From a bacterium (lineage in GTDB: Bacteria; Vulcanimicrobiota; Vulcanimicrobiia; Vulcanimicrobiales; SCRA01): DNA of 27,875 nucleotides. The stretch lies in assembly GCA_004298675.1 (NCBI GenBank), contig SCRI01000028.1, positions 1-27,875 of the forward strand, given 5' to 3'. Every line of letters starts with the position of its first letter. Position 1 is the first letter of the stretch. Under the pieces are notes generated by a model. It searched no databases, was not told where the DNA came from, and saw only the letters and a list, made by a program, of their open reading frames with translations. Positions 15,569 through 25,634 of this stretch are shown here, one piece after another. The position numbers were made by a program, and so were the translations under genes.

Positions 15569-15590
15569 ACGTCACGCGATGCGGTGACGT
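15569..15590. terminator. Hairpin between convergent operons
   Basis: The perfect inverted repeat ACGTCAC-N8-GTGACGT (15569-15590) lies where the rightward operon ends and overlaps the last codons of the acyl-CoA dehydrogenase. A second, overlapping repeat GCATCG...CGATGC is at 15562-15582. No T-run follows on either strand, so it would be an atypical terminator. Confidence 0.35.
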
Positions 15591-16738
15591 TCGATGAGTT
15601 GCTTGGCGATGATGGTGCGCTGGATCTCGTTGGTTCCCTCGCCGATGAGCAAGAGCGGTGCGTCGCGATAGTAGCGTTCGACGTTGAAATCCTTGGTGTA
15701 GCCGAAGCCGCCGTGGATGCGCATCGACTCGAGGGCGCAAAATTCCGCGGTTTCCGTGGCGAAGAGCTTGGCCATGCCGGCTTCCATGTCGCAGCGCTCG
15801 CCGCGGTCCTTCCGCTCGGCCGCCGAACGGGTGAGCAAGCGGGAGGCTTGAACGCGCGTCGCCATGTCGGCTAGCTTGAGCTGGATAGCTTGGTGCTGCC
15901 AGATCTGTTTGCCGAAGGTTTCGCGTTGCTGCGCGTAGCGCACGGCGTCGTCGAGCGCGGCTTGGGCAAGCCCCACGCCGCGAGCGGCGACGTTGATGCG
16001 ACCGAGCTCGAGACCGCTCATGATCTGCTTGAAACCCTGGCCCTCCCGCCCCCCGATGAGATTGGCGGCCGGTACGCGGTAGTGATCGAAGACCACCTCA
16101 CAGGTGTCCAGACCTTTGTAGCCGAGCTTTTCGATTTCGCGGCTGACGGTGAAGCCCGGTCCCTGATCCTTCTCGACGATGAAGAGGCTGATGCCGCGGT
16201 GCGCGGGCGAGGCCGTGGTGTCGGTCTTGACCAGAACGGCAAAGGTATTGCCGTGGAGGCCGTTGGTGACCCAGAGCTTCGTGCCGTTGAGCACGTACCA
16301 GTCGCCCTCGCGCGTGGCGGTCGTGCGTATCGCTTGGAGATCGGTCCCCGCACCGGGTTCGCTGAGCGCGATCCCCCCACGGCGCTCGCCGGTCGCCATC
16401 AGCGGAAGCCAGTGGGCTCGCTGCTCCTCCGTTCCGCCGCGCAGGATGTCGTAGCACATGATGAGGTGACTGTTGAGGATGCCGCTGACGCTCATCCACG
16501 CGTGGGCTATCTCCTCGATGATCGCGGCGTACGAGGCGACGCTTAGGCCGACGCCGCCGTATTTCTCGGGGATCGTCGCCCCGAAAAGCCCGAGCGCTTT
16601 CATTTGCTCGACCAGCGCGGCCGGAAAGGTATCGCTCTGCTCCATCGCGTGAGCGATGGGCCTAATCTCGCGGTCGACGAAGCGGCGAATCTCGTCGACC
16701 GTTTCGCGCTCGAACTCGTCACGATCGGGGCTTAACAT
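15572..16738 (-). CDS. Acyl-CoA dehydrogenase
   Basis: This FAD enzyme of 388 residues introduces an alpha,beta double bond into an acyl-CoA and passes electrons to an electron-transfer flavoprotein. Family motifs are [15 protein letters not shown] (about 130), KLWVTNG, the helical [20 protein letters not shown] and [10 protein letters not shown] near the C-terminus. In the last motif E367 falls at the short-chain acyl-CoA dehydrogenase position of the catalytic base. AAGGAG lies 12 bases before the ATG at 16738, 25 bases after the selenoprotein stop, so it is probably the last gene of the long leftward operon. A short or branched acyl-CoA substrate fits the branched-chain-type transporter and the mutase, but this is inference. 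Confidence 0.92.
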
Positions 16739-16763: not shown

Positions 16764-17279
16764 TTACGTCAGCCAGCGTTGGCGCACTTGAGCGACTGCG
16801 CTACGCGCGCGCTCCTCGATCTGCGCCTCGGTCAGCGTGCTCAAGGGATGGGCGATCACGACGGGATCGAGGCCCTCCATGCCCAGCGCCGCGCGCTGCA
16901 CGTGAGCTTCGTGAAGGAAAACCTCGGTCACGACGACGGCACTGGGGGTTCCGAGTTCCTCGAGCGAGATGGCGTCATGCATACAGCACGACGTACAGGA
17001 CCCTCAATCGCCGATTGCGGTGAGCACGGCCTGATTCTCGGCGGCGATGCGCGCAATCAGCGCGGGATCGGCCGATTTCGAGAAACTCTCCTTTTTGTAG
17101 AAGCGGACCTCGCCGATACCATCGTCGCGTTGCAACAGTGCAACGACCGCTCGCAGGAGTTTTTGGCCGTTCCACTTGGTGTTGTCGAGAACTCCCAGGC
17201 GTAGGCCGCGCAAACTCGTCAGGCGCGCAGCGAGCGGCTTGGGCTGCGCCTCGACCACGCCGGTCGGATCGTAGATCAT
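16764..17279 (-). CDS. UGSC-family selenoprotein (in-frame TGA = selenocysteine)
   Basis: This is one 171-residue protein read through a TGA at 17004-17006 (codon 92). The 5' half ([20 protein letters not shown] ... [11 protein letters not shown]) and the 3' half ([18 protein letters not shown] ... RQRWLT) are in the same frame, separated only by that codon. The join reads D-U-G-S-C-T-S-C-C, the motif that names the UGSC (seleno)protein family, whose other members have Cys at this place. AAGGAG is eight bases before the ATG at 17279, while the downstream half has no credible start of its own. A SECIS-like hairpin follows the TGA. Four redox-capable residues cluster here (U92, C95, C98, C99). 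The family is thought to be a thiol/selenol oxidoreductase, but its reaction is unknown to me. It follows the 367-residue protein gene by 34 bases in the long operon. Confidence 0.87.
16973..16993 (-). promoter_or_regulatory. Bacterial SECIS element for selenocysteine insertion
   Basis: Starting 11 bases after the TGA, the transcript can fold CGUCGUGC-UGUAU-GCAUGACG: eight base pairs with one G-U wobble and a five-base loop. The loop has G and U at its second and third positions, about 20 bases after the UGA. Bacterial SECIS elements are known to need a stem with a G (usually GU) in the apical loop at roughly this distance, where SelB binds. The match supports reading the TGA as selenocysteine. 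Confidence 0.75.
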
Positions 17280-17313: not shown

Positions 17314-18417
17314 TCACAGGCGGCAGGTTCCGTCGACGCAGAGCGGCCCACCCGCCGAGGGCGCCTGGCCATCCACGGCGCGCAGTACGGGGCTCGTCAT
17401 GTGTCCCCAGCCAGGGATGAAGGCGGAGAAGCGGCCCGCCTCGCCTCCGGCGACGAATAGATGGATGTCGTCCGGCGAGGCCACGATCGGAATGCGCGCC
17501 CCTGCTTCGCGCTTGTACCAGCGTGGGAGGTTGCGGTTATAGATCTTTCCGTAACGGCCGCCGAAGCTGATCTGGTCAAAGGTGTTGGTGGTGTTCATCC
17601 AGAGGTAACTGCGCACGTCGTTGCGGGTCCAGCCGTGCTGCGCGATCGTGGCGGCGTGTTCGGGGCCGATGACCACGGCGCACGAGCCTCCCGAGACCGA
17701 GTTGTTGTGCGCGAAGGTACTCATCGCCGAGATGATGCTGTCGAGGATGCCCTGTGGGTCGTTTGCGATGTGGTTAGTGACGCTGTGTGGCGGCTCGGCG
17801 GCGATCACAAAGACCGTGCTCTGCTCGGGCGCATAACCACGATCGACGTGATAGGGAGCCCAGGGGCTCGCCTCTTCGTTCTCGGCGATGCAGTAGGTGT
17901 ACTTGCCCGGGTGCCCCAGCGTGCTCTTATCGAGATCGCCCGGTATCGCGCCGCCCACAGTCAGCAAGACCAGCCGGATCGCCCGTCCTATCGTGGCGTT
18001 GGCGCGGTTCCCGGAGCCGAAGACGTTGCAGCCGGCGTTCATCCCGATCTCATGCCTGACCGGACCGTTGACTACCAGGAGCGGCGCCGCCATGTGCGTC
18101 GTTGCCTGGACGCCGTTGAGGTTGAAGTGCGCGTCGCAGAGCGCCAGCAGCGCGGCGCGGACGACCGGCGCGTAGACCGGCTTACAGCCCGCCATCACGA
18201 GGTTGACCGCAAGCACCTCGCGCGTGAGGTTTCCGTAGCGTGGCGGAACGCGGCATTCCAGGTAAGCGCCGTCGTCTCCGAGGGCCGTCACCATCGCCGC
18301 TACCTTCTCGGGCGTCGGTGCGACGACTGGGAGCCCGTCGGACCAGGGCTGTTCGAAGTAGAATTCCACGAGATCATCCTGCGGGCGAAGATCCGCAATC
18401 GTCTGTGACATCCTCAT
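17314..18417 (-). CDS. Conserved protein of unknown function, putative partner of the UGSC selenoprotein
   Basis: This 367-residue protein is one whose biochemical role I do not know. Visible features are EQPWSDGLPVVAPTPEKVAA near the N-terminus, a glycine/asparagine-rich core (NAGCNVFGSGNRANATIGRA), NNSVSGGSCAVVIGPEHAAT, and a C-terminal pair C360-x4-C365 in LCVDGTCRL. No signal peptide or membrane segment is evident. From memory, proteins opening with this W-x-D-G-L-P-V-V pattern are found beside UGSC-family genes. I give this as recollection, not evidence. Its ATG overlaps the livF stop (ATGA, 18414-18417), and the selenoprotein gene follows after 34 bases. The C-terminal cysteine pair could exchange electrons with the selenocysteine of its neighbour. 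Confidence 0.7.
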   Translation of the reverse strand: MRMSQTIADLRPQDDLVEFYFEQPWSDGLPVVAPTPEKVAAMVTALGDDGAYLECRVPPRYGNLTREVLAVNLVMAGCKPVYAPVVRAALLALCDAHFNLNGVQATTHMAAPLLVVNGPVRHEIGMNAGCNVFGSGNRANATIGRAIRLVLLTVGGAIPGDLDKSTLGHPGKYTYCIAENEEASPWAPYHVDRGYAPEQSTVFVIAAEPPHSVTNHIANDPQGILDSIISAMSTFAHNNSVSGGSCAVVIGPEHAATIAQHGWTRNDVRSYLWMNTTNTFDQISFGGRYGKIYNRNLPRWYKREAGARIPIVASPDDIHLFVAGGEAGRFSAFIPGWGHMTSPVLRAVDGQAPSAGGPLCVDGTCRL

Positions 18418-19123
18418 GCCTCTCCCAAATATGCGCGTTTGACGTCGGCGTGGCCGCGGATCTCGGCTGCGAGGCCTTGCAGGACCACGCGTCCCTCGGC
18501 GATCACGTAGGCGCGAGTCGCCAGCGCAAGCGACTGTACGACGTTCTGCTCGACGAGAATAACGGTAATTCCCGTCTGGTTGACCTCTCGTATCATGGCG
18601 AAGATCTGCGCCGTCAACAACGGTGAGAGCCCGATCGAGGGCTCATCCATCAAGAGGATGCGCGGTTCGGACATCAGGGCGCGGGCGATCGCCAGCATCT
18701 GTTGCTCGCCGCCGGAGAGCGTTCCGGCAGCCTGGCCACGGCGCCGGCCAAGAATCGGAAAACGTTCCTCCATCGTCCTGACGTTGACGTGTAGACGACG
18801 GCGAGAGCGCGCCGTTTGACCACCGACCAGCAGGTTCTCTTGAACGGTCATCTCGGCGAAGAGATGCCGCCCCTCTGGCACGAGGACCAGCCCGCGCTCA
18901 ACGATCTCGCGCGGACTCTTGCGCTCGATATGCTCGCCGCTGAGCAGTATCTCCCCACTGCGCGCGCGGAGAATGCCCGCGATGCTGTTCATCGTCGTCG
19001 TCTTGCCGGCGCCGTTGGCGCCGACGATCACGACGATCTCGCCCTCGTCGACCTCCAAACTCACCCCATGCAGAGCTTTGAAGTCACCGTAGGAGACGTT
19101 GAGGTTGCGAACGCTGAGCAGGC

Positions 19124-19127
<4 letters not shown>
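18414..19127 (-). CDS. livF: Branched-chain-type ABC transporter ATPase LivF
   Basis: This is a cytoplasmic ATPase of 237 residues. Walker A is GANGAGKTT (36-44), the signature is LSGGEQQMLAIAR (137-149) and Walker B is ILLMDEPSIGLSP (from 157). The GRHLFAEMTVQENL segment and the overall length are typical of LivF, one of the two ATPases in high-affinity branched-chain amino acid/amide importers. Start and stop overlap the neighbouring genes by four bases each. Related systems also carry urea, amides and aromatic or aliphatic acids, so the ligand need not be an amino acid. Confidence 0.93.
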
Positions 19128-19890
<763 letters not shown>

Positions 19891-19894
<4 letters not shown>

Positions 19895-20826
19895 CGTTGG
19901 ACCTGTGCAGCGCGCGCGCGACGCCGCTCGAGCGCAGCGCTGATCGCCGGGGCGATACCGCGCGGGAGGAGTACGAGCAAGACCACCACCAGACCACCGA
20001 AGATCATCAGATAGGCTTGAGGGTACTGTGCCGCGAGGATCTCGGAGACTTGCGACATCAGGACGCCGCCGATCAGTGGCCCCCAGAGCGTACCGATGCC
20101 GCCGAGGATCGTCATCGCCACGGCCTGGAGATCGATTCGCGTAGCGAAGGCCGAGACCGGCTCGACGTAGGTAAGGTACCAGGCATAGCCGCCGCCAAGC
20201 AATCCCGGCATGATCGCGCTGATGACGAAGGCCCAGACCTTCGTGGTGGTGACGTGCACACCGAGCGTCGAGGCCACCTGCTCGTCTTCGCGTAGCGCCT
20301 GAAGGCGTAGCCCGAAGGCGCTACGATCGATGAAGAGCGTTGTGGCGAAGCCGAGCAGACCGATGACGAGTGTCCAGTAGTAGACAGGCAGTGCGTTCGA
20401 GCCGGGTGGGAGGAAGAGTCCTGAGCCGCCGCCCGTGAGCTGCCATGAGTTGGCCACGACTTGGAGTGTCTGGGCCATGCCCAGCATGCCGAGAGCGAAG
20501 AATGCGCCGCGTAGCCGCAACATCAGGTAGCCCAGCGGAACGGCTAGGGCCGCGGAGACCAGGCCGCCGAGCAGCGCCCCCTCCCACCATGGCAGGTGCG
20601 CCCGGATGACCGCGATCGCGGTCGTGTAGGCGCCGAGACCGAAAAACGTAACCTGGCCGAACGAGAGGTATCCTGCGTAACCCGAGATGACGTTCCAAGC
20701 GTAAGCAAGTGCGACGTAGAGGACGGTGATGTAGAGCAACGAGCGCGCGTAGCCATTCAAAAACGGTGGTACGGCAGCGAGCACGGCCACGACGATGATG
20801 GAGATGACGAGCGCGCGTCCGCTCAT
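19891..20826 (-). CDS. livM: Branched-chain-type ABC transporter permease LivM
   Basis: This is an integral membrane permease of 311 residues with about eight to nine hydrophobic segments. LivM features are YAWNVISGYAGYLSFGQVTF (residues 43-62), the ATPase-docking segment LRLQALREDEQVASTLGVHV, and AVAMTILGGIGTLWGPLIGG near the C-terminus. The ATG at 20826 overlaps the livH stop by four bases, and its own stop overlaps livG. It forms the membrane channel with LivH. Confidence 0.93.
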
Positions 20827-21698
20827 GCGCCGCTCTTTCCAAGTAGGCCGGCAGGACGCAGCAGGAGCACGAGGATGAAGAGCACATAGGGCGCGGCCTG
20901 CGCGACCTGCGCCGTGGCGAAGTAGCCGGTGAACGAGATTGCCAGACCGATAACGGCCGCTCCCACGAGTGTGCCGGCGTAGTTTCCGAGCCCGCCTAGC
21001 GCGATGACGGCGAACGAGGCGAGCGTTACATTTGCCCCCGTCTCAGGGTTGACGGTGAAGATGAGGATGAGCAGGCAACCGGAAGCCGCCGCTATCGCCG
21101 TTCCGAGGGCGAAACTCAGCGTACGCACGCGCTCGACGTCGACGCCGCATGCAAGTGCGCCCTGAAGGTTTTGGCTGGTCGCGCGAATCGCGCGTCCCAG
21201 CGCAGTATAGCGAAGTAACATCGCCAGCAACGCCGCGACGATGCCGGAGGCGACGAAAGCGAGCAGACGCGCCTGCGCGATCGAGAAGGGTCCCAATGTC
21301 CAAGCGCCCGTGAGATAGGGCACGGAACGGAAGTTCCCGCTGAAGAACGCCAGCCACGCCCCGACAAAGAAGTAGGAGAGTCCGAACGTCATTAACAGCG
21401 AAGTAGCCTCCGCCGAGGCGAGATCCGTGGGCAGGCGCCGGAGGAAGGCGCGCTGGATCAGCGCGCCTAGTCCGAATGCCAGCACGAAGGCGAGCGGTAG
21501 CACGACGAGTACGCTCGCGTGCAACCGCTCGAAGAGTACCGCGGCGAGCAGCGCCGCGCCGATGACGAACTCGCCATGGGCGAGGTTGACGATGCGCATG
21601 ACCCCGAAGATGACGTTGAGTCCTAGGGCAGAGAGCGCGTAGACACCGCCGACCAGTAGGCCGTCAATCGTCAGTTGCCCGAAGAGCGCTGCATGCAT
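20823..21698 (-). CDS. livH: Branched-chain-type ABC transporter permease LivH
   Basis: This is an integral membrane permease of 291 residues with about eight hydrophobic segments. It shows the family opening LTIDGLLVGGVYALSALGLN and VIFGVMRIVNLAHGEF, the cytoplasmic docking motif GRAIRATSQNLQGALACGVD, and ASFAVIALGGLGNYAGTLVG. The start at 21698 has only a weak ribosome binding site and lies 13 bases after the binding-protein stop. It overlaps livM by four bases, so translation may depend partly on the preceding gene. Confidence 0.92.
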   Translation of the reverse strand: MHAALFGQLTIDGLLVGGVYALSALGLNVIFGVMRIVNLAHGEFVIGAALLAAVLFERLHASVLVVLPLAFVLAFGLGALIQRAFLRRLPTDLASAEATSLLMTFGLSYFFVGAWLAFFSGNFRSVPYLTGAWTLGPFSIAQARLLAFVASGIVAALLAMLLRYTALGRAIRATSQNLQGALACGVDVERVRTLSFALGTAIAAASGCLLILIFTVNPETGANVTLASFAVIALGGLGNYAGTLVGAAVIGLAISFTGYFATAQVAQAAPYVLFILVLLLRPAGLLGKSGA

Positions 21699-21711: not shown

Positions 21712-22914
21712 CTAGCGTGTCGACCAAGGCGCGAAAGGCAGGCTAGGCGGCCGTTGGGCCAGGGCTTTGGGATAGACGACGAATTGCTTCCCGTTTACCC
21801 ACTGCAGCACCAGTGACTTATAGCCTTGCTGGATGCCGGTCTTCGGGTCTACCTTGTACGTACCCATGACGGTCGGCATCGTTAAGGTGGCCAGCTGATC
21901 GCGCAACTTCGCGGAGTCTAGCGAGCCCACACGCTTGACGGCATCGCCAAGGACCTCGAGTGAGGCGAAGTTCGCAGCCGCATGGTAGTCCGGCGCATGA
22001 CCGAACTCCGCTTCGAAGGTCTTGACGAACGCCGCATTCCCTTGCGTCTTGAGCTCGGCGTTCCAGTTTCCGGTACCCATGACTCCCTCGGCATCCTTGC
22101 CATTCTGTGTGCCGAACGAGAGTTCCGTCGGTCCGACGCCTTCGTAGAGGAGCTTGGGCGCGAAGTTGGCCTGCTTCATCGCGCGCAGCAGGCCCACGGA
22201 GTCGGGTAGATACGAAGCGGCGATCACGATGTCGGGATTGGCCTGCTTCATCTTTTCGACGATCGAAGAGTAATCGGAAGCGTTATGCGGATAGAGCTGG
22301 TTGAAGACGATCGTCATGCCCATCTTCTTCGCAAGGTCGTCGACCCCGGCGACGACGGAGCGCGGAAAAAGGGTGTCTTCGCCGGTAACCGCGATCGATT
22401 TGTAGCCCTTTTCTTTGGCGATCTCCATCGGCCCCTCGACGTAGGCGGCAGCGATTTGGATGCCCTGGAAGATCTCGGTCAGGCCACGCTGGAAGGGTGC
22501 GGTAGAGGCAACCTCGGGCGAGATCATCGGCATGTGATGCTGCTGGGCAACGTTGGCCACCGAGGCCGTGACGGCGCTGGAGTAGGGGCCGACGATCAGG
22601 TCGACGTGATCCTGGTCGATCAGGCGTTGGTAGAGGCGAACCGCGGTGGCGGGATCGCTCGCGTCGTCATAGGTCTTGAGTTCTATCTGGCGCCCTAGTA
22701 GACCGCCCGCGGCGTTTTGCTGCTTGACCCAAAGCTGATAACCTTGAAGTGCGAGCTTACCACTGTCGGCGTAGGCGCCAGTTTCGGATATCGACGCGCC
22801 GATGACGATTGGCTTGTCTGCGGCGCTTGCCGTAAGATGTGGGCCTCCGAGTGCGATGATGAAAGCAGCCCCCGCGACCCCAGCAGCGATCGCTTGCAGT
22901 CGGGTTCTCCTCAT
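21712..22914 (-). CDS. livK: Branched-chain-type ABC transporter substrate-binding protein LivK
   Basis: This periplasmic receptor of 400 residues belongs to the type I (Leu/Ile/Val-binding) fold. The signal peptide is about residues 1-31 (MRRTRLQAIAAGVAGAAFII, cut near TASAA). Family motifs follow: IVIGASISETGAYADSGKLA, LYQRLIDQDHVDLIVGPYSS and the QHHMPMISPEVAST loop. An open frame extends to 23082, but AAGGAG six bases before ATG 22914 and the signal peptide fix the start. It is 16 bases downstream of the GntR gene. The ligand is unknown. The acyl-CoA genes in the same operon point to a carboxylic acid. Confidence 0.92.
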   Translation of the reverse strand: MRRTRLQAIAAGVAGAAFIIALGGPHLTASAADKPIVIGASISETGAYADSGKLALQGYQLWVKQQNAAGGLLGRQIELKTYDDASDPATAVRLYQRLIDQDHVDLIVGPYSSAVTASVANVAQQHHMPMISPEVASTAPFQRGLTEIFQGIQIAAAYVEGPMEIAKEKGYKSIAVTGEDTLFPRSVVAGVDDLAKKMGMTIVFNQLYPHNASDYSSIVEKMKQANPDIVIAASYLPDSVGLLRAMKQANFAPKLLYEGVGPTELSFGTQNGKDAEGVMGTGNWNAELKTQGNAAFVKTFEAEFGHAPDYHAAANFASLEVLGDAVKRVGSLDSAKLRDQLATLTMPTVMGTYKVDPKTGIQQGYKSLVLQWVNGKQFVVYPKALAQRPPSLPFAPWSTR

Positions 22915-22930: not shown

Positions 22931-23647
22931 TTATGGCATGGGTAGTGAGTGAGTCCCTTTCTTCCAATATCCCGAGCGTTCGAGACGCGCGAGCAGAAGC
23001 TCGCAACCGACGCGCACGTGCAGCTTGGCGGTCGTGCGCGCCGCTTCAGTAGAGCCCGATGCCAGAGCGGCGAGGAGAGCACGATGGTGCGGCATCGCTT
23101 TCTTCGACCAGCCCGGAACCAGACGGTGGAACGCGTGCGGAACGCTGCGCGTCACCTGGCGAAGCATGCGGGAAAGGCGCGGCGAGTGCGCGCACCGGTT
23201 GATGAGACGGTGAAACTCCCAGTTGAGGGCATCGATGGTCTCACCAGAGCGTTGCGTGAGTGCGCGCTCCATGCGCCGCTGAAGTTGTTGACATGCCTGA
23301 AGCGACGGTTGATCGATAGTCAGCGCGGCGCGGGCAGCCAGCTCCCCACAGAGAAATTCATGCACGAGATAGGCGTCGCGAATATCCGCGCGTGTCATCG
23401 GTATCACGCGCACGCCGCGAGCCTTTGCGATCTCGACAAGTCCCTCGCGCTCCAGCGCAAGGAGCGCGGAGCGGACTGGCGTGATGCTGGTACCGAGCCC
23501 GCCGGCAAGGTCCGCCATGCGCAGCCAAGTCAGCGGCGCGAGGCGTCCCGCGATGATCAAGTCGCGCAGGTGGGTGAGCGTACGCACCGAGAGCGATGAC
23601 GCCTCGTCGGGGGGAAGGGGTTCGAGGCCCCGCAGCATGCCGTTCAT
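22931..23647 (-). CDS. GntR-family transcriptional regulator (FCD subgroup) within the mutase-transporter operon
   Basis: This is a 238-residue regulator. Its winged helix (about 20-75) reads RTLTHLRDLIIAGRLAPLTW, then SITPVRSALLALEREGLVEI. The FCD domain (about 88-225) has candidate metal-binding histidines in NWEFHRLINRC, MPHHRALLAAL and TAKLHVRVG, so a small carboxylate bound through a metal is the likely effector. Its ATG overlaps the stop of the small mutase subunit (ATGA, 23644-23647), and livK follows 16 bases after its stop. It probably controls this operon and perhaps the divergent genes at 25785. Confidence 0.9.
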   Translation of the reverse strand: MNGMLRGLEPLPPDEASSLSVRTLTHLRDLIIAGRLAPLTWLRMADLAGGLGTSITPVRSALLALEREGLVEIAKARGVRVIPMTRADIRDAYLVHEFLCGELAARAALTIDQPSLQACQQLQRRMERALTQRSGETIDALNWEFHRLINRCAHSPRLSRMLRQVTRSVPHAFHRLVPGWSKKAMPHHRALLAALASGSTEAARTTAKLHVRVGCELLLARLERSGYWKKGTHSLPMP

Positions 23648-24039
23648 CGCTGCGGCCCGCCGCGTCCGTAACGCATGAAAGCGGCGACGACCTCCGAGAG
23701 TGGGGATCCGGTGGGAAACACGTCGGAGACGCCCAGTGCACGGAGGGTCTCGACGTCAGCCGGGGGGATCGCTCCGCCCACGAGCACCGGGACTTCTCCA
23801 GCGCCCTGCGCGTGCAGACAGGCGATGAGTTTACGGCTAAGACTCACATGTGCCCCTGAGAGCATGCTCAAGCCGACGACGTCCGCGTCCTCCTGAACGA
23901 CCGTCGCCGCGATCTGTTCGGGTGTCTGGCGTAGCCCCGTGTAGATGACCTCTGCGCCCGAGTCGGCGAGCGCGCGCGCAATAACCTTTGCCCCGCGATC
24001 GTGTCCGTCGAGTCCCGGCTTCGCGATGACGATGCGCAT
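23644..24039 (-). CDS. Methylmalonyl-CoA mutase small subunit (B12-binding)
   Basis: This 131-residue cobalamin-binding domain is encoded apart from the catalytic subunit. D11-G-H13-D-R-G16 in GLDGHDRGAKVIAR is the DxHxxG motif whose His replaces the lower ligand of B12. GLSMLSGAH and VLVGGAIPPADVETL complete the nucleotide-tail pocket. The start ATG 24039 overlaps the large-subunit stop (TGATG). The frame remains open upstream, but those residues overlap the large subunit out of frame and are not family-like. Together with the large subunit it makes an active adenosylcobalamin-dependent acyl-CoA mutase. Confidence 0.92.
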   Translation of the reverse strand: MRIVIAKPGLDGHDRGAKVIARALADSGAEVIYTGLRQTPEQIAATVVQEDADVVGLSMLSGAHVSLSRKLIACLHAQGAGEVPVLVGGAIPPADVETLRALGVSDVFPTGSPLSEVVAAFMRYGRGGPQR

Positions 24040-25634
24040 CAGATGACGATAGGCTCGCGGAATTCGCCGAATACGCCGCGCAGCAGGTTGCAGATTTCGC
24101 CTAGCGTGCACAGCGACTCCACCGCTTCGATCAGCGGTGGCATGAGATTCTCCTCGCTGCCTGTTGCCGTGAGCAGGGCCTCGAGCGCCCGTTTCGCGCG
24201 TGCCTCGTCGCGGCGCTGCCTGACGGCGCGCAGGCTCTCAATTTGGCGATGCACGGAGGAGTCGTCGACCTGGAAGAGCTCGAGCTTGCGGGTCGCGTCT
24301 TCGGTGCGGAAGCGATTGACCCCGACGATGATCTCCTCGCCGGACTCGAGACGTCGCTGACGCTGGTAGGCTTCGTCGGAGATCAATTGCTGGATATAGC
24401 CGCGCTCGATGCAGGGGACCATCCCACCTTGAGCTTCGACCTCTTCCATCAACGCCAGCACTTCGCGTTCCGTCGCGTCGGTCAGCGACTCGACGTAGTA
24501 CGATCCGCCCAAAGGGTCGGCGACCTCGGCGCTGCCGGTTTCAAAGGCAAGGATCTGCTGCGTGCGCAGGGCCAGCTCCGCGCTCTGCTGTGTGGGAATT
24601 GCGAACGGCTCGTCCCAGGCGGCGGTGAAGATCGAGCTCGCGCCTCCGAAGATCGAAGCCATGGCCTCATAAGCGACGCGGATCGCGTTGTTGATGGGCT
24701 GTTCGGCCTGCAGTGTGCTCCCGCCGCAGACGAGGCCGAAGCGGAAGGCCCACGAGCGTGGATCTTGCGCACTAAAACGCTCGCGCATCACGTTTGCCCA
24801 AATACGGCGGGCGGCACGATATTTCGCGATTTCCTCAAAAAAGTCGCTGTGCGTGTAGAAGAAGAAGCTGATGTTGCTCGCAAAGCTGTCGATCGGCAAC
24901 CCGCGCGCGAGACAGCGTTCCACGTACGTGACGCCGTCTAAGAGCGTAAAGGCCAGCTCTTGCACGGCGGTGGCGCCCGCATCGCGAAAATGTGCGCCCG
25001 CGACGCTGATGGCATTGAAGCGCGGAACCTCGTTGGCGCAATATTCGATGGTGTCGACGATGAGGCGAAGCGAGGCCTCGACTGGATAGATCCACGTGCC
25101 GCGCGAGACGTACTCTTTGAGGATGTCGTTCTGAATCGTCCCCGAGATTCTGCGCAGATCGGCGCCTTGGCGCTTAGCGACGGACACGTACATCGCGAGG
25201 AGCACCGCTGCCGTGGCGTTGATGGTAAACGACGTCGTAATCTCGTCGAGACGGATTCCAGTAAAAAGACGCTCCATATCCTCGAGTGTGTCGATCGCGA
25301 CGCCGACGCGCCCGACCTCCTCCTCGGCGCGTGGATCGTCCGAGTCGTAGCCGAGCTGCGTTGGAAGATCGAGAGCGACGCTCAGGCCGGTCTGCCCTTG
25401 CTCGAGCAGGTACCGGTAGCGCGCATTCGACTCTTGCGCGGTACCGAAACCGGAGTACTGACGCATCGTCCAGAGCTTGCGCCTGTAGCCTTCGTGCTTG
25501 ACACCGCGCGTAAACGGAAAGACGCCGGGGTCGCTTACGTGCTCGCCATAGCGCGAACCGTTCCAATCGGCGGGCCCATAAAAGACCTTGCGTGGAATGC
25601 CCGAAGGCGTCGTGAATTCACGCTTCTCGTTCAC
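24039..25634 (-). CDS. Methylmalonyl-CoA mutase large subunit
   Basis: This catalytic TIM-barrel subunit of 531 residues lacks the B12 domain, which is encoded next door. Motifs are KLWTMRQYSGFGTAQESNAR, QTGLSVALDLPTQLGYDSD, SGTIQNDILKEYVSRGTWIY and SNISFFFYTHSDFFEEIAKY. Y60 and R178 occupy the places of Tyr89 and Arg207 of the known methylmalonyl-CoA mutase. These are the residues that distinguish it from isobutyryl- or 2-hydroxyisobutyryl-CoA mutases, which have Phe/Ile and Gln there. The enzyme would interconvert methylmalonyl-CoA and succinyl-CoA. The start is GTG 25634, without an obvious close ribosome binding site. It is the first gene of an eleven-gene leftward run. Confidence 0.92.
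   Translation of the reverse strand: MNEKREFTTPSGIPRKVFYGPADWNGSRYGEHVSDPGVFPFTRGVKHEGYRRKLWTMRQYSGFGTAQESNARYRYLLEQGQTGLSVALDLPTQLGYDSDDPRAEEEVGRVGVAIDTLEDMERLFTGIRLDEITTSFTINATAAVLLAMYVSVAKRQGADLRRISGTIQNDILKEYVSRGTWIYPVEASLRLIVDTIEYCANEVPRFNAISVAGAHFRDAGATAVQELAFTLLDGVTYVERCLARGLPIDSFASNISFFFYTHSDFFEEIAKYRAARRIWANVMRERFSAQDPRSWAFRFGLVCGGSTLQAEQPINNAIRVAYEAMASIFGGASSIFTAAWDEPFAIPTQQSAELALRTQQILAFETGSAEVADPLGGSYYVESLTDATEREVLALMEEVEAQGGMVPCIERGYIQQLISDEAYQRQRRLESGEEIIVGVNRFRTEDATRKLELFQVDDSSVHRQIESLRAVRQRRDEARAKRALEALLTATGSEENLMPPLIEAVESLCTLGEICNLLRGVFGEFREPIVI

Follow-up and report, generated by a model that had tools for sequence, protein, structure and literature searches.

The gene on the minus strand at positions 17279-16764 of the window, that is, of the entire 27,875-nucleotide stretch of DNA that was analyzed, is nearly certain, based on its sequence, to encode a selenoprotein of the UGSC family that is made by recoding of an in-frame UGA. 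We propose, with a probability of roughly 0.6, that this protein and the product of the gene directly upstream of it constitute a two-subunit, thioredoxin-fed selenol reductase, which would resemble the Grd and Prd systems and function in CoA-linked catabolism. UGSC is a published selenoprotein family without an assigned function that was supposed to be thioredoxin-like in the Global Ocean Sampling survey of 2008, in which it was the fifth largest selenoprotein family with 255 Sec sequences, one of its members being fused to a domain termed “Unknown_1” (PMC2398784). A review from May 2026 still lists no role for it, and the view taken in the preliminary description of this DNA, that the reaction of UGSC proteins is not established, agrees with the literature from 2008 to 2026 that was consulted. 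What is new relative to that literature is the constant partner gene, the thiol tails and the kinship to GrdB and PrdB. Tying UGSC to a single partner, to GrdB/PrdB rather than to thioredoxin, and possibly to a relay fed by thioredoxin reductase leads to questions that can be addressed at the bench, and the existence of Cys forms in cultured organisms, such as the Cys pairs of Candidimonas nitroreducens and Paralcaligenes ureilyticus, makes the function of UGSC accessible to such tests.

The reading frame starts with an ATG at 17279, which is preceded by GAAGGAGAACGTACG, a good ribosome-binding site, and ends with a TAA at 16766-16764. Read-through of the in-frame TGA at 17006-17004 gives a single frame of 171 residues with Sec at position 92 (U92) in the context IGDUGSCTSCC. 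The preliminary description had recognized this TGA, the resulting D-U-G-S-C-T-S-C-C and the strong ribosome-binding site of the upstream half, all of which were borne out by our analyses; its coordinates were also all correct, and the strand, which it had left out, is minus. Its placement of the protein in the UGSC family stands as well, as the read-through product scored above both curated cut-offs, with 148.4 bits against NF041046 (cut-off 125) and 188 bits against PF24696 (cut-off 25; E 2e-55). The window protein has the [U/C]GSC motif with a UGA-encoded Sec followed by a bacterial SECIS, its family alternates between Sec and Cys at this position, its host has selA, selB, selC and selD, and it has no feature that would exclude it from the family.

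The raw frame is broken at the UGA, as would be expected if this codon were an ordinary stop and the locus a pseudogene or two separate genes. Members of the UGSC family are found in 18 of 149 genomes of the phylum, however, and exactly one TGA is present in 26 of their 28 matches, while a Cys codon replaces that for Sec in 13 loci from the Pseudomonadota, Actinomycetota and haloarchaea, whose frames are unbroken. Homologues that end at the position of the UGA, which had been named beforehand as an observation that would count against recoding, were looked for and did not occur. In addition, the divergence between copies from the same genus falls mainly on third codon positions on both sides of the UGA (e.g., 7/2/31 and 3/3/21), which indicates that both halves, including the one 3' of the UGA, evolve as coding sequence. 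Together with the full Sec machinery of the genome, described below, these data leave the reading of the UGA as a stop with almost no probability, and as far as sequence can do so they refute it.

On the minus strand, positions 16993-16973 form a hairpin, CGUCGUGC-UGUAU-GCAUGACG, in which an 8-bp stem closes a 5-nt loop whose second and third positions are G and U. The stem, the loop and the expected placement of the G and U were as previously described, except that the spacer between the UGA and the stem measured 10 nt rather than 11 nt. In isolation this hairpin is weak evidence, and not being rare it does not by itself speak against an ordinary stop: a comparable hairpin lies at the same distance from 0.6% of TGAs in any frame, and 18% of the sequences obtained by recoding the peptide synonymously retain one, so it could arise from the coded peptide, and its folding z was −1.86. 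It is the conservation of the hairpin in Sec copies, as compared to Cys copies, that makes the case for a SECIS. The 25 Sec copies have a mean stem of 7.8 bp, with at least 7 bp in 23 of them and GU in the loop of all 25, whereas the mean stem of 14 Cys homologues is 4.4 bp, only five have at least 7 bp, and the loop has GC or another pair of bases in 13. The GU of the loop mostly requires one of two minority codons, either TGT, at 21% of the Cys codons in the genes of the window, or AGT, at 12% of their AGY codons. An alignment of 21 distinct copies showed standard pairing in 94.6% of cells, versus 9.5–55% when the partner strand was slid, and two pairs had changed on both sides. The fused UGSC copies have a different stem (CACCCGC/GCGGGTG), in a register shifted by one, and a 6-nt loop that starts with CGU.

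The preliminary description had concluded that the organism must decode Sec, and had named a lack of all sel genes as evidence to the contrary. The search for these genes that it called for was carried out in the source genome (3.03 Mb, 98.5% complete) and identified a tRNA-Sec (71.7 bits), selA (543 bits) with selB directly downstream of it, and selD, the last carrying one in-frame TGA (G000:C43:69356-70279), indicating that SelD is itself probably a selenoprotein in this genome. UGSC is encoded four times in the source genome, with a single TGA in every gene; the preliminary description had not noted the three further copies, nor the partner gene and the likeness to GrdB/PrdB that are treated below. 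Sec-type copies occur in 16 genomes, of which 12 had a tRNA-Sec of at least 70 bits among the best 100 candidates per genome, and three of the other four (G030, G127 and G129) had a SelB above cut-off; in the fourth, G120, which is 83% complete, neither a tRNA-Sec of at least 70 bits among the best 100 candidates nor a SelB above cut-off was identified. Nine of the 12 genomes from other lineages with Cys forms had no tRNA-Sec of at least 70 bits, an absence that is not proof because it was scored on the best 100 candidates per genome.

Two other loci of the source genome concern selenoproteins or thioredoxin. A PrdB/GrdB-like selenoprotein of ~220 aa with its UGA in LLTGG-U-PLC is encoded at G000:C18:47112-47774 (L061, L069), and is classed as a relative of PrdB, since its score of 185 bits against TIGR04483 lies below the cut-off of 300. 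The only clear classic thioredoxin (PF00085) is encoded directly upstream of selA and selB (G000:C71:76691-79229), and a thioredoxin gene also lies within ~3 kb of selB in G016, G076 and G128.

The partner gene lies directly upstream of the UGSC gene (minus strand, 17314-18417) and encodes a protein of 367 aa with a VMAGC motif containing Cys78 and the C-terminal tail CVDGTCRL. No match to it was identified in Pfam or NCBIfam, and 16 of its relatives matched no Pfam family at E 0.01 or better. A partner of ~360 residues is encoded beside UGSC in all 13 of the Cys loci in the Pseudomonadota, Actinomycetota and haloarchaea, and in the phylum it accompanies UGSC in all but two loci, both of which are cut by a contig end. 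The two genes are 1.8 kb apart in G128, and the partner is fused behind UGSC in L012, L040 and L058. Cys78 in VMAGC is invariant in 16 partner sequences, as are DG, GP, N and GR positions. Adjacency of the two genes does not prove that their products form a complex, but based on this constant company we consider that UGSC and its partner probably act as one functional unit.

The two genes are part of a minus-strand operon that, in order, encodes the large and small subunits of a two-gene enzyme of the methylmalonyl-CoA mutase type (23644-25634; TIGR00641, 666 bits and TIGR00640, 150 bits, both above cut-off), a regulator that is GntR/FadR-like by reading (22931-23647), a LivKHMGF importer, the partner, UGSC, and an acyl-CoA dehydrogenase (15572-16738; PF00441/PF02770/PF02771). 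The importer comprises a LivK-type substrate-binding protein (21712-22890; PF13458), transporter genes of the LivG-LivM-LivH type that were named by reading of the ORFs (19124-21698), and a LivF-type ABC ATPase identified by family search (18414-19127), the end of whose gene overlaps the start of the partner gene by 4 nt. This operon is retained in the same order in two genomes of the same genus (L072, L073). Other UGSC loci encode CaiB CoA-transferases, amidohydrolases, enoyl-CoA hydratases, and importers of the TRAP or Liv types. These contexts fit a small organic acid that is imported and then degraded by a CoA-linked route.

Operons with CaiB-type CoA-transferases, amidohydrolase-2 proteins and acyl-CoA enzymes would also suit a non-reductive reaction in which a CoA-linked or heterocyclic substrate would be hydrolyzed, isomerized or dehalogenated, with the selenol or thiol as the nucleophile and thiols serving only to keep the Sec reduced. 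In keeping with such a reaction, Cys forms are numerous in haloarchaea and sphingomonads, and the fold of the partner gave weak hits to class I fumarase and cyclic amide hydrolases. The partner model had a pLDDT of 78 and a pTM of 0.83, and although these hits reached E 1e-5 in Foldseek, they had a TM of only ~0.25 with an rmsd of ~17 Å and a Z below 6.5 in a second alignment. We consequently did not assign the partner to either group; the best second-alignment Z for fumarases was 5.8, and the partner had no Pfam match. Since the invariant UxxC pair of UGSC and the recurring thiol tails, described below, also indicate a redox cycle, we regard a non-reductive role as unlikely, while giving it some weight.

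Kinship to GrdB and PrdB was written down as a hypothesis ahead of the similarity tests that follow. Several UGSC proteins weakly matched the families of PrdB, GrdF, GrdH and the selenoprotein B of glycine reductase (TIGR01917, TIGR04483, NF040794 and NF040795; E 0.004–0.007). Against TIGR01917, TIGR04483 and TIGR01918, the window protein itself had no match up to E 5, other members gave E 0.004–0.03, and the curated cut-offs were not reached. In hhalign comparisons with a PrdB-like alignment, UGSC gave P values of 2e-5 to 5e-4, with Sec aligned on Sec and Cys on Cys, and the PrdB-like selenoprotein of the source genome matched UGSC_fam reciprocally (E 7e-4). The UxxC active-site segment thus occurs in the same context in both groups, as a strand-UxxC-helix-E..G(I)P(T/S)-strand segment common to GrdB, GrdF, GrdH, PrdB and UGSC, in a likeness that spans ~50–70 residues and is far under the curated cut-offs. 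The Grd systems are linked to thioredoxin, and such a link and a two-subunit organization are what we propose for UGSC. The differences are that UGSC proteins have only ~170 aa, score far below the cut-offs, and have a partner that is unrelated to any Pfam family and therefore has no likeness to the pyruvoyl subunits of the glycine and D-proline reductases. No pyruvoyl-type second subunit (GrdE/PrdA) was found when the partner and its relatives were compared with Pfam-A at E ≤ 1.

A UxxC motif and the occasional proximity of genes for TrxB-like proteins are what would be expected if UGSC were a general redox protein of the thioredoxin type, such as a disulfide reductase or peroxidase, with incidental neighbors. 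The AlphaFold model of the window protein (pLDDT 93, pTM 0.87) consists instead of five strictly alternating strand-helix units, with the Sec predicted at the start of the helix that follows the third strand. The thioredoxin core, a beta-alpha-beta-alpha-beta-beta-alpha arrangement with CxxC or UxxC after its first strand, was not found in this model, and hhalign to thioredoxins gave a P of 0.1; the predicted topology and this value rule against a thioredoxin fold. As the constant partner gene and the catabolic operons also argue against it, we consider a thioredoxin-like role quite improbable. Based on the alignments and the model, the evidence points to the UxxC segment of UGSC being kin to the selenol domain of glycine and D-proline reductases rather than to thioredoxin.

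Sequence searches with profiles of UGSC, the partner and the PrdB-like protein gave no convincing solved relative, and the model of the partner also had no convincing structural match. Among solved chains aligned to the UGSC model, the best neighbor was 8s7v_H from the MCR-activation complex (Z 10.7, rmsd 3.3, 132 aligned), which came first by ~1 Z unit, the others being general flavodoxin/CheY-like folds; a distant link to this methanogenesis activation protein is possible at the level of fold only. By hhalign, the partner was not akin to PrdB (P 0.29), and UGSC compared with the partner gave a P of 0.46.

Thiol-bearing tails or domains were identified in most UGSC branches. In the branch of the window, the sequence of every partner closes with C-x-DG-[TA]-C-x-L or a near variant of it. 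Six systems have a partner devoid of this tail, and their UGSC has an extra C-terminal domain bearing CxxC or CxDGxC; the appended CxxC module is found in L010, L029, L030, L035, L054 and L055, and we take it, by reading, to be of the NifU type; in the branch of the window, only the partner's CVDGTCRL tail is comparable to it. In six further systems, from sphingomonads and haloarchaea, a single Cys lies within a few residues of the C-terminus of UGSC. No obvious thiol tail was seen in L011/L037, L017, L036, L039 or the fused copies. UGSC has a TrxB-like gene in its vicinity at five loci (L015, L047, L055, L058 and L078), as compared to ~0.3 expected by chance over the loci viewed, by our estimate at 2–4 genes per genome, and most UGSC loci have no TrxB within 6–10 kb. 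At L047 the TrxB-like gene (TIGR01292, above cut-off) shares an operon with UGSC and CaiB, and of the only two TrxB-like genes of the source genome, the divergent one is ~3 kb from the fused UGSC gene.

Based on these observations, we propose a two-subunit, thiol-dependent reductase in which UGSC provides the selenol and its partner binds the substrate. From its position where the helix that follows the central strand begins, the Sec selenolate would attack a substrate held by the partner, and Cys95 of the UxxC would resolve the Se-adduct to give a selenenylsulfide. Electrons from thioredoxin and a thioredoxin-reductase-like flavoprotein could then be relayed by the partner's flexible CxDGTCxL tail, a role that in other branches may fall to the C-terminal CxxC domain or C-terminal Cys of UGSC. 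A small organic or amino acid taken up by the cell is the probable substrate, and in the window the product would enter CoA-linked breakdown, because genes for an ABC importer of the branched-chain type, an acyl-CoA dehydrogenase and an enzyme of the methylmalonyl-CoA mutase type belong to the same operon. The step that we infer is a thiol-fed reduction of the Grd/Prd kind, which is not classed as glycine or proline reductase because the curated cut-offs are not reached and the pyruvoyl subunit is not found. We suggest more tentatively, at slightly under even odds, that UGSC and its partner represent an undescribed two-subunit branch of selenol reductases of the GrdB/PrdB type. This branch would have an unrelated subunit for the substrate and a thiol relay of its own, and would serve CoA-linked catabolism in organisms other than Stickland-fermenting anaerobes, among them haloarchaea with Cys forms.

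Second copies of the partner gene were observed in tandem beside UGSC-partner pairs at L015:8512-9459 and L016:35-1018, and at L057:8650-10299 the second copy is a fusion, the UGSC half of which is without the motif. At the left end of the window, positions 98-1231 hold a transposase-like gene, which by reading presumably resembles IS21 IstA.
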